Shown here one piece after another: positions 1-31,636 of a stretch of 31,636 nt of DNA. How positions within the stretch are numbered: the first letter of the stretch is position 1; the number at the start of each line of letters is the position of its first letter. This stretch comes from a virus: IMG/VR virus record IMGVR_UViG_3300043436_002497, positions 1 through 31,636 of that record; one strand, given 5' to 3'. Position numbers and translations under genes: made by a program. The notes beneath the pieces were generated by a model, which searched no databases, was not told the origin of the DNA, and saw only the letters and a list, made by a program, of their open reading frames with translations.

Positions 1-127
1 CTTCCGCCTCAGATACCGCTTGACCCCGGAGAGGTCTTGAAGCTGGTCTATTTTATAGGAGTCGGCCATGTAGGCCGCCCCGTGTCAAACAAGCCCGTGG
101 GAACGGGCGCGTAAGAGTAAATCAGGA
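1..127. repeat. Terminal direct repeat (circular contig overlap), left copy
   Basis: Bases 1-127 are identical to 31510-31636. The repeat covers the start of the gpW-like gene and the first part of the structured element. A length of exactly 127 equals a common maximum assembly k-mer, so this most likely marks a closed circle rather than a biological terminal repeat. Features in the overlap are described once, at the right end or here. Confidence 0.93.
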
Positions 128-187
128 GATTTTCGACTGATTTAGCCCGGCAGGGCGGCACTGGTCGTCGGGAGACGACTGCCGTCA
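82..187. ncRNA. Three-hairpin structured element, copy 1 (terL/gpW junction)
   Basis: It lies between the terL stop and the gpW-like start. Read on the plus strand it holds three hairpins: 93-98/103-108 with loop GGGA, 118-125/137-144 with an 11-base loop, and 164-169/174-179 with loop GGGA, the last extended by GGCA/TGCC (157-160/180-183) across a 3-base bulge. The linker GCGTAAGA follows hairpin 1. Copy 2 at 30985-31080 has different stem bases that still pair. GNRA-type loops on the plus strand suggest that strand is the RNA, although the neighbouring genes are on minus. The edge at 82-89 is GTGTCAAA, the TTTGACAC start-associated motif. Confidence 0.6.
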
Positions 188-192
188 AAGGG

Positions 193-15705: not shown

Positions 15706-15855
15706 GACCTTGAGGCCCGTGTCAAAACGTGGTCGGTGGTGACCGACCCGGTTAGACTGAGAGCTTTAGCGAACAGCCCCGAGCGTCAGCGAGTGGGTGA
15801 GCCGAGCGGGCGCGAGCGAATCAAACAAGCCGTCAGCAGACGGCGCAGCGGTGGT
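15706..15855. other. Hairpin-rich intergenic, with relative of the structured element
   Basis: From left to right on plus: GTGTCAAA (15719), a 7-bp stem GGTCGGT/ACCGACC, a GAGCG-rich stretch (about 15777-15820), then TCAAACAAG plus a 6-bp hairpin (15829-15834/15839-15844) and GC. The last part matches the start of the three-hairpin elements at 82 and 30985. A further stem, 15850-15855/15860-15865, places the endolysin stop codon in its loop. Confidence 0.5.
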
Positions 15856-20471: not shown

Positions 20472-20514
20472 AGGGGATTAGGCTGAAGGCTGAAGGCTGA
20501 AGGCGGGAACCCAT
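20472..20514 (-). other. Leader mini-ORF after TTTGACAC, made of heptamer repeat
   Basis: TTTGACAC (20527-20534), exactly 12 bases, then ATG at 20514 opening a 14-codon frame (MGSRLQPSAFSLIP) read through the heptamer array and stopping seven bases before the next gene's ATG. It may be a translated leader peptide or chance. Confidence 0.35.
20481..20504. repeat. CTTCAGC heptamer array 7 (as GGCTGAA)
   Basis: Three GGCTGAA units then GGC, between the 20091-20465 gene and the mini-ORF start. Confidence 0.85.
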
Positions 20515-20550
20515 ACGGAGGCCCTAGTGTCAAACCTCTGACCTAACAGT

Positions 20551-20571
20551 CTTCAGCCTTCAGCCTTCAGC
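20551..20571. repeat. CTTCAGC heptamer array 8
   Basis: Three perfect CTTCAGC units, followed by CTG, between the Cys-rich tail protein stop and the TTTGACAC site. Its flank (GTTAGGTCAG on minus) resembles that of array 4. Confidence 0.85.
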
Positions 20572-26485: not shown

Positions 26486-26533
26486 AGTAAGGTGGGTTGG
26501 GAGTTAAGAGTTGCGAGGTGTCAAATGGGTTGT

Positions 26534-27266: not shown

Positions 27267-27291
27267 ACCAGATCGTAGGTGTCAAAACAGC

Positions 27292-27312
27292 CTTCAGCCT
27301 TCAGTCTTCAGT
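27292..27312. repeat. CTTCAGC heptamer array 9
   Basis: CTTCAGC, CTTCAGT x2, between the capsid terminator and the TTTGACAC site of the next gene. Confidence 0.85.
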
Positions 27313-27330
27313 CTATCCACCTTTCTCCAC

Positions 27331-29459: not shown

Positions 29460-29478
29460 ATTGAGGAAATGCGGAGTG

Positions 29479-30972
29479 TCAAACGGCGGGGTCAGTCACC
29501 GGGTCTGGTGCCGGAGGTGGAACGGGTGAACCGGGCGCAGGAGGGAAGACTTCCTGAACGCTGATCTCGACGCCTTCCTCGGCGGCGATCTCGGCAACCC
29601 GCTTCTTGCGCCGAACGGCTGCGCGGATGGTGTCATCCAGCACCTTGTCGTGATCCTTCCCCTGCATGTTGTAGTAGTCCTGCGGGGAGATCTGACCACG
29701 GAGCAGCATGTCGCTGTAGAGGCGACCGTCTCTGCCTATATCGACACTCACTTTCATGGGGGCCGTAGCCTCCATGCGCCACCAATCAGTCCCATCGTTC
29801 GGCATGGGCAAGCGTCCGGCCTCGATCTCCTGCCAGATCCAGAACCTCCAGAACGGAGCAACGAATGACTGGATGATGATCTCCTGAATCCGTGAAATGG
29901 TCTTGGCGGCATCCTCCATGGCGAAACGCATGGTCGCGCCCCCGGCCTCCTCGGGATCGAATAGCACCGAGGCAGGCATGTTGAACCCATGCGCGATGTC
30001 GCGTCGGAGATACTTCAGAAAGGTGTCGAGGTTCGCGGAGGGGTGGGCGTTGTTGAAACTTTCGATGCGCTCTCCCGGCTTCAACTGCGGGATGATGGAA
30101 CCCTCGGTGAGAATGTCCTTGGTGATGCTGCCGCCTGCGGCCTGCACCTTCTGAAGTGAGGAGCCAAGGCCGATCTGCCCGGCCTCGGGCGAGGTGATGA
30201 CGAAGGCCAGCGAGGAGCCGAGCTTCGCGCTCATCTTTTCGTAGCCCAAAATCTCGGTGATGTCTTGGAGGTGATCGGCGGCGCGGTGGAGCCACGGGCG
30301 GGATCTCACCTGACCGATGCGGTCAACCTTCCCGACGCGGGTGAGGTCGTCGGCAGAGAGCTCGTTATACTCGGCATAGTTGCCGGGAGCCTTCAGAACG
30401 CGGTAGCGGGTCGGCGCACCCAGCTTGCTGACCTTCACGCCGTCCACCCACCCGTCCTTCACATCCCCATGGGCCGATCCGACATTCTCGCCCGGCACGA
30501 TACGGAACATGGCGCGGCCAGAGTTGCTGGTCTGCTTCTGCCAGAAGCAATCGCCAGCGAGGGCCATCTGCTTCACCAAGATTTCCTGTGCGTCGTAGAA
30601 GTTGACTTGCTTGGAGACATCCACTCCGAAAGCGGAATTGCCACAGGCATCCTCGAAAGCCCGCTCTGCCATGCGGTTCCAGTTCTCATCGGCGGTCTTG
30701 GCCTGCGGAATGAGAGGCCCGACAAACTTGGCAACGCCGTCCACCGCACGGGCGGCTAGGCCGATATTCTCATACAGGAAAAACGACTTCTTGGTCTGCT
30801 CGATCCGGGCTGAAGGGGTGAGAGACTTGCTCGCGTCAAGCGTCGGCGTATAGATCCACATCCGCTGCGGCGATGCGATGCCGTCGGCAGAGGAGAAGTT
30901 GGTTGCCTTCTTAGGACGACCCGCTCCGGGTCGCGCACCACCACGGGTTGAAAGATTTGATTTCTTAGGCAT
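29479..30972 (-). CDS. Portal protein, lambda type
   Basis: About 497 aa; forms the DNA-entry dodecamer. Recognised by FLYENIGLAARAVDGVAKF, QMALAGDCFWQKQ, RSRPWLHRAADHLQDI, HGFNMPASVLFDPEEAGGAT and the following helical FAPFWRFW-like region, and by its place after gpW. The N-terminus has a basic GGARPGAGRPKK. The ATG at 30972 (MPKKSNLSTRGG) is preferred over a GTG nine bases upstream because it lies exactly 12 bases after TTTGACAG. Confidence 0.9.
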   Translation of the reverse strand: MPKKSNLSTRGGARPGAGRPKKATNFSSADGIASPQRMWIYTPTLDASKSLTPSARIEQTKKSFFLYENIGLAARAVDGVAKFVGPLIPQAKTADENWNRMAERAFEDACGNSAFGVDVSKQVNFYDAQEILVKQMALAGDCFWQKQTSNSGRAMFRIVPGENVGSAHGDVKDGWVDGVKVSKLGAPTRYRVLKAPGNYAEYNELSADDLTRVGKVDRIGQVRSRPWLHRAADHLQDITEILGYEKMSAKLGSSLAFVITSPEAGQIGLGSSLQKVQAAGGSITKDILTEGSIIPQLKPGERIESFNNAHPSANLDTFLKYLRRDIAHGFNMPASVLFDPEEAGGATMRFAMEDAAKTISRIQEIIIQSFVAPFWRFWIWQEIEAGRLPMPNDGTDWWRMEATAPMKVSVDIGRDGRLYSDMLLRGQISPQDYYNMQGKDHDKVLDDTIRAAVRRKKRVAEIAAEEGVEISVQEVFPPAPGSPVPPPAPDPVTDPAV

Positions 30973-30984
30973 TTCAAACACGCC

Positions 30985-31080
30985 CTGTCAAACAAGCCGG
31001 TGGGAACCGGCGCGTAAGATCACGCGAAAGCGTGACCCGGAGGGCGGCACCGCTCGCCGGGAGGCGAGTGCCGTCCCAAA
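30985..31080. ncRNA. Three-hairpin structured element, copy 2 (upstream of portal)
   Basis: On plus: stem 30996-31001/31006-31011 with loop GGGA, stem 31020-31025/31030-31035 with loop GAAA, stem 31053-31058/31063-31068 with loop GGGA plus GGCA/TGCC outside (31046-31049/31069-31072). Same order, linker GCGTAAGA and bulge as copy 1, with changed bases that keep pairing. It begins at the TTTGACAG motif of the portal gene. The strand of the RNA is uncertain. Confidence 0.65.
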
Positions 31081-31097
31081 ATCAAACAGAAATCAAA

Positions 31098-31173
31098 TGG
31101 CACAGCCCCTTGGAATCGAACCAAGCCAGATGGTTTTGGAGACCTTCTCGCCAGCCTTGGAACATTGGACTGC
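31098..31173 (-). tRNA. tRNA-Trp(CCA)-like gene, divergent D-arm
   Basis: On minus, 76 bases starting GCAGTCC and ending GGGCTGT-G-CCA, which pair over seven positions with two G-U pairs. The T-arm CTTGG-TTCGATT-CCAAG is perfect. The anticodon loop CTCCAAA (T33, anticodon CCA, A37) has a 5-bp stem with one mismatch. The D-arm does not form a normal stem and position 8 is A, so it may be decayed or unusual. CCA is encoded. It lies between gpW and portal. Confidence 0.6.
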
Positions 31174-31287: not shown

Positions 31288-31578
31288 TCAAACTGACCAA
31301 CGCACTGCGCTGAAGTCGGGAGAGGTGCCAAGCTGACGGCCACTGGGGCCTTCCGCGATGATCGCCTCGATGGCGGCGAGAAGGAGATTCGCAGGGACGC
31401 TCATCTGTCCCGTCACGCCGCCGCCCTGACCATAGGACGAGATGACGACGCTCTCGTCGATCTTCCCAAATGCCTCGTCTGCCAAGGCATCAAGCTCCTC
31501 TGCGCTGAACTTCCGCCTCAGATACCGCTTGACCCCGGAGAGGTCTTGAAGCTGGTCTATTTTATAGGAGTCGGCCAT
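31288..31578 (-). CDS. Head-tail joining protein, gpW-like
   Basis: 96 aa: SYKIDQLQDLSGVKRYLRRK, then a short beta/helix part (ESVVISSYGQGGGVTGQM, LLLAAIEAIIAEGP). Size and place between terL and portal match lambda gpW, which plugs the portal after packaging. It is slightly longer than gpW. The ATG lies exactly 12 bases after TTTGACAC of the structured element. The first 69 bases of the window repeat its 5' end. Confidence 0.65.
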   Translation of the reverse strand: MADSYKIDQLQDLSGVKRYLRRKFSAEELDALADEAFGKIDESVVISSYGQGGGVTGQMSVPANLLLAAIEAIIAEGPSGRQLGTSPDFSAVRWSV

Positions 31579-31636
31579 GTAGGCCGCCCCGTGTCAAACA
31601 AGCCCGTGGGAACGGGCGCGTAAGAGTAAATCAGGA
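31510..31636. repeat. Terminal direct repeat, right copy
   Basis: Identical to bases 1-127; see the left copy. Joining the two gives a circle in which gpW follows terL. Confidence 0.93.

Follow-up and report, generated by a model that had tools for sequence, protein, structure and literature searches.

A non-coding element of about 90-105 bp that folds into four small hairpins, A, B, D and C (type I), has inserted repeatedly at one seven-letter signal before genes in uncultured bacterial viruses. We are highly confident that this element is mobile and that its fold, rather than its exact sequence, is under selection. Judged by its features and its likeness to known systems, it would at about even odds (a probability of roughly 0.5) be a non-autonomous, site-specific hairpin element that is moved in trans as single-stranded DNA by a Y1-type enzyme. 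Two copies, e1 and e2, lie in the stretch of DNA analysed here, the 31,636 bases of IMG/VR record IMGVR_UViG_3300043436_002497 (the window; Table 1).

The two ends of the window (1-127 and 31510-31636) overlap by exactly 127 bp. Exact end overlaps usually indicate that an assembler has closed a circle through a k-mer; the 127 bp probably reflect such a k-mer and not a terminal repeat of biological origin, and the overlap led us to treat the window as a circle of 31,509 bp. The window codes for a GpA-type terminase, a lambda-type portal, a tape measure, an endolysin and an integrase. The nearest isolate is the Akkermansia phage Moulinsart (terminase 33%, portal 24%), a likeness that gives a weak hint that the hosts of this clade may be Verrucomicrobiota; host prophages, sought by portal alignment in genome contigs, were not found. 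Copy e1 has the terminase gene on one side and a small ORF on the other; e2 is flanked by a tRNA-Trp gene and the portal gene. The first-pass annotation had described the copies as framing a gpW gene on both sides. The framing stands, with ORF 31288-31578 and the tRNA-Trp gene between e2 and e1 on the circular map; the sequence of the ORF does not confirm it as gpW, as no Pfam or PHROGs family matched. The tRNA gene lies among head genes, many relatives have similar sequence at this place, and a tRNA-Sec match was rejected as the same locus.

Table 1. Positions of the elements, their parts and target motifs in the window
Feature	Position	Strand	Remarks
Target heptamer TGTCAAA (coding strand TTTGACA), 5' of e1	83-89	+	ATG 13 nt away, coding strand
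Type I copy e1	90-189	+	Empty site in L074/L006/L007; covariance-model match E 6e-28
e1 stem A	93-98/103-108
e1 linker GCGTAAGA	109-116
e1 stem-loop B	117-145
e1 hairpin D	146-155
e1 stem C	157-160+164-169/174-183
e1 right end GTCAAA	184-189
Target TGTCAAA, 5' of type III element	15720-15726	+
Type III element, ending in GCGAATCAAA	15727-15825	+	Other copies in L088, L104, L023
Truncated type I element (TCAAA target-like, CAAG, stem A, GGCGC)	15821-15846	+	Directly behind type III right end
TGTCAAA without type I-III element	26519-26525	+	Probably the site holding type II in some relatives (homology inferred from gene order)
Unoccupied TGTCAAA overlapping portal stop codon (e3 site)	29477-29483	+	e3 fills the site in L064, L024, L063, L005
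Target TGTCAAA, 5' of e2, upstream of portal gene	30986-30992	+
Type I copy e2	about 30993-31081	+	Empty sites in L051-L057 and others; covariance-model match E 2e-34
e2 stem A	30996-31001/31006-31011
e2 linker	31012-31019
e2 stem B	31020-31035
e2 hairpin D	31036-31044
e2 stem C	31046-31049+31053-31058/31063-31072
e2 right end GTCCCAAA			Mutated GTCAAA
tRNA-Trp (CCA)	31098-31173	-	Context, not element; between ORF 31288-31578 and e2
TTTGACA, examples	89, 2568, 15726, 20534, 24044, 29483, 30992	-

Type I copies, their target and their empty sites

Read on the + strand, the type I element consists of TGTCAAACAA, stem A with a GGGA loop, the linker GCGTAAGA, stem B and a short CCC/GGG hairpin D, followed by GGCA, a 3-nt bulge, stem C with a GGGA loop, TGCC and the right end GTCAAA. 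Counted from TGTCAAA through the last right-end base, the two window copies span 83-189 and 30986-31078, the places where the first-pass annotation had put them, and they share the order of parts, TGTCAAACAA, the linker GCGTAAGA, a GGGA loop on stem A and on stem C, and a lower stem GGCA/TGCC that carries a 3-nt bulge. The base differences between their stems are likewise exactly as it had given them. Its three stems are all present, but its count of three hairpins is one short, as the small hairpin D (CCC..GGG) between B and C had been overlooked. The folding energies of e1 and e2 beat those of 200 shuffles on both strands (z -3.4 to -4.9).

Pattern scans of IMG/VR together with a covariance model gathered a type I family of at least 25 distinct copies from about 22 phage records, at about 14 insertion sites; the covariance-model search, which the first-pass annotation had proposed as a check, contributed to this set. 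The terminase and portal of the element-bearing phages are often just 25-30% identical to those of the window. Pattern matches in L095, L111 and L113-L116 were judged to be chance after inspection. The class had not been recognised from the sequence, and comparison with the Rfam covariance models at their curated cut-off gave no match either. A single narrow pattern, the 20-base type I left end, found 0 copies in 84,980 bacterial and archaeal genomes, and blastn of the element against 50,697 phage GenBank records and 72,556 plasmids returned chance-level matches only. A literature search on the TTTGACA motif or the element found no paper.

Clean empty and filled alleles were obtained at three type I sites (e1, e2 and e3) by comparison with relatives found via their terminase and portal proteins. 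At the e1 site, the window has TGTCAAA-element-GTCAAAGGGTCACTGG and the sequence in L074, L006 and L007 is GCCCCGTGTCAAAGGGTCACTGG; short decayed type I remnants occupy the site in L005 (3051-3114) and L082 (4581-4642). At the e2 site, many relatives read CTGTCAAAAATCAAACGG and have no element. The third site, which overlaps the portal stop codon, is empty in the window and in most other relatives; where e3 fills it, the portal keeps the same TGA because target and element end both supply TTTGA on the coding strand. Every type I copy begins directly 3' of TGTCAAA and has ..TCAAA as its last letters, and the empty alleles retain TGTCAAA. The 5' end of the portal gene differs between phages with and without e2, which suggests that a recombination block adjoins e2.

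On the coding strand the target reads TTTGACA, which is a gene-start motif of this clade. In 237 kb of sequence from the window and its relatives, it occurs 94 times on the coding strand versus 2 times on the other. No 7-mer is more frequent in the 30 nt before ORF starts, and the distance from the motif to the ATG is most often exactly 13 nt and mostly 13-17 nt. The motif also precedes portal genes without any element; Moulinsart has no TTTGACA at its gene starts. A reading as a -35 box was rejected, the start codon being too close. As the target is the gene-start motif, the copies sit before genes, the small ORF called gpW included, and no special tie to gpW is needed, the motif standing before many genes. 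The element exploits this clade-wide motif as a safe harbour. Simple CCTTCAG repeats also lie directly behind TGTCAAA in the window, at about 20483-20564 and at 27280-27330; the latter repeat is absent in L008, so that TGTCAAA evidently takes other inserts too.

Compensatory change and the folded strand

In an alignment of 18 type I copies, 17 of the 26 pairs have changed on both sides and 96.6% of the cells are paired, where cells do not count as independent events because the copies are related by descent. None of 500 shuffles reaches these values, and when partners are slid by 1-3 columns the pairing falls to 36-46% and the double-changed pairs to near zero. The covariation is present in all three stems A, B and C, for which different lineages use different sequences at unrelated sites. 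The hairpins have stayed intact while their letters changed, which argues that selection acts on the fold itself. The compensatory change and selected single-strand fold proposed from the two window copies are thereby strongly supported, and the covariation, whose significance had been flagged for checking, lies far above both shuffled and slid controls.

Several observations bear on which strand folds. Among 25 type I copies, wobble cells comprise 6 G·T and 0 A·C, which favours the + strand as the folded one, and one lineage can be followed from G-C (most e2 copies) through G·T (L005) to A-T (L006). Type I folding energy alone does not choose between the strands. In the sister family termed type II, the + fold is better by 5-11 kcal/mol in 7 of 7 copies and contains stacked tandem G·A mismatches, which can form on the + strand only. 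Together these data point to the + strand, antisense to the genes, as the folded strand.

A fold kept over the whole length of the element, with GNRA-like loops on the + strand, would also suit a mobile regulatory cassette, in which a structured RNA (or its complement in a 5' leader) controls the next gene and which spreads between TTTGACA starts by phage recombination; all copies do lie directly upstream of a start codon, usually by 13-17 nt. We regard this as unlikely. The target, which marks gene starts whether or not an element is present, already accounts for the position; close relatives have one and the same site filled or empty with no other visible change; the folded strand is opposite to the gene; and recombination over 6-7 bp would leave the element-specific right ends (see below) unexplained. 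A related precedent is PeSL, the mobile promoter/stem-loop regulatory cassettes of T4-type phages. These are likewise small, mobile, structured cassettes at phage gene borders, whereas type I itself combines a conserved fold of several hairpins with a defined target for insertion.

Sister families at the same target

Two sister families have the same hairpin plan and target as type I. Type II, found through weak matches of the model, comprises TGTCAAA, a stem A whose loop contains GGG, TAGTCAT, the tandem-G·A hairpins B and D, a TGCC/GGCA stem C with a GGGA loop, and the right end GACAAA. It also has a clean empty site, as L161 is filled where L053 and L054 are empty, with flanks that are 93% identical. 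Type III is represented in the window itself. Type I ends occur directly behind type II or type III right ends, and one such case accounts for the one-hairpin relative that had been noted at 15821-15846: the hairpin is real, but it is no separate relative, being the 5' end of a type I element butted onto the type III element. The hairpin sequence CCGTAACGGATGCGTAGCAACGG was observed within or behind type II/III elements in L152 and L155, and similar sequences in L100 and L089.

The right ends are set by type, GTCAAA in type I, GACAAA in all type II and ATCAAA in type III. They differ from type to type but not from site to site and so are part of the element, and CAAA alone could be duplicated target; the ends agree equally well with an IS605-style cleavage site and with a target duplication of 4 bp, CAAA. 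The short direct repeats that flank each copy would be expected if a DDE transposase moved the element as a MITE and duplicated 4-6 bp of target, an explanation that we consider extremely improbable, given that terminal inverted repeats are absent (the type I termini, left CAAG.. and right ..GTGCCGTCAAA, have no inverted match), that there is a single fixed target and strand-specific folding, and that the type II and III right ends depart from the target beyond CAAA. It is very improbable, too, that a tyrosine recombinase with a short core moves the element as a folded, integron-like recombination site. A phage integrase is present in the window and many relatives and an identical short core lies at both ends, but integrases are equally common in phages with the element (8 of 12) and without it (7 of 10), the element lacks the one long, imperfect hairpin in which core boxes pair, and the right ends differ between types.

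A proposed mode of movement

IS200/IS605 elements, and REP sequences that Y1 enzymes move, are characterised by traits seen here: empty sites that are clean, a fixed target on the 5' side, a hairpin at each end, a target-like right end, the lack of inverted repeats and a fold specific to one strand (PMC6006769, PMC8266576, PMC5934647). The elements described here resemble IS200/IS605 and its end-only derivatives in forming one-strand hairpins near both ends, subterminally placed, without terminal inverted repeats, and in inserting 3' of a fixed short sequence that is kept in the left flank, with a right end resembling the target. Unlike IS200/IS605, they are accompanied by no transposase in the phages, are found only in phages, use a 7-nt target and conserve four hairpins along all of their 90-105 nt, which exceeds the needs of a minimal IS605 derivative. 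REP/REPIN sequences, moved by TnpA-REP (RAYT) and probably mobilised in trans (PMC8266576), are comparable in being short, intergenic and hairpin-forming, with several families per genome. They differ in that our elements lack a GT[AG]G foot (the type I 5' foot is (C/T)AA), form no chromosomal repeat (0 in 84,980 genomes with the pattern used), have no Y1 gene in the phages, and show a precise left target, TGTCAAA, and one fixed orientation to genes.

In the Y1-type mechanism that we favour, the + single strand would fold into the four hairpins A, B, D and C, which would be bound in single-stranded DNA, presumably during replication, by a trans-acting enzyme encoded by the host, most likely of the HUH/Y1 class (IS200/IS605 or REP transposase). 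The enzyme would then excise the element and rejoin it 3' of another TGTCAAA, and as the right end of the element resembles the target, the target and the surrounding stop and start signals would stay intact. Neither a Y1 transposase (PF01797) nor TnpB (PF07282) or a reverse transcriptase (PF00078) was detected in 21 element-bearing records, and a comparison of gene content found no gene present in all element-bearing phages yet missing from the others. In the absence of such enzymes and of a shared mobiliser gene from the phages, the enzyme would be the host's.

The linker GTAAGA(C), which directly follows hairpin A on its 3' side, may aid the choice of target by pairing with TGTCAAA(C), as we hypothesize from the following covariation. 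In the putative target-linker helix, T3-A34, C4-G33 and A7-T30 are invariant, and C8-G29 becomes T8-A29 in the e3 copies (one compensatory event). The same register places GACAAA with TTAGTC in type II and GTCAAA with TTAGAC in type III. The complementarity is short and weakly above that of shuffled linkers in each family (p 0.04-0.35). This possible pairing and its one compensatory change, as well as the conserved unpaired linkers and the strand-specific fold, would also agree with an RNA-mediated element, whose + strand would be transcribed, folded and copied into DNA at a base-paired target (a small retroelement or a bridge/guide-RNA type). With no reverse transcriptase or TnpB in the element-bearing phages and no promoter evidence for the + strand, such a route appears distinctly unlikely.

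To our knowledge, little is known of small non-coding mobile elements that are restricted to phages and selected for their fold. The empty sites, the fixed target, the three sister families and the strong covariation make both the movement and the folded strand directly testable. If the guide pairing were true, base pairing would decide the target, as in IS608, whose target is selected by forming base pairs with the element itself (PMC5934647, PMC6006769). Our candidate guide follows hairpin A on the 3' side, in contrast to the IS608 guide, which lies 5' of its hairpin. More tentatively, the element might represent a new class of phage-borne, nucleic-acid-guided mobile elements, in which a linker guide would steer insertion to a harmless gene-start heptamer.
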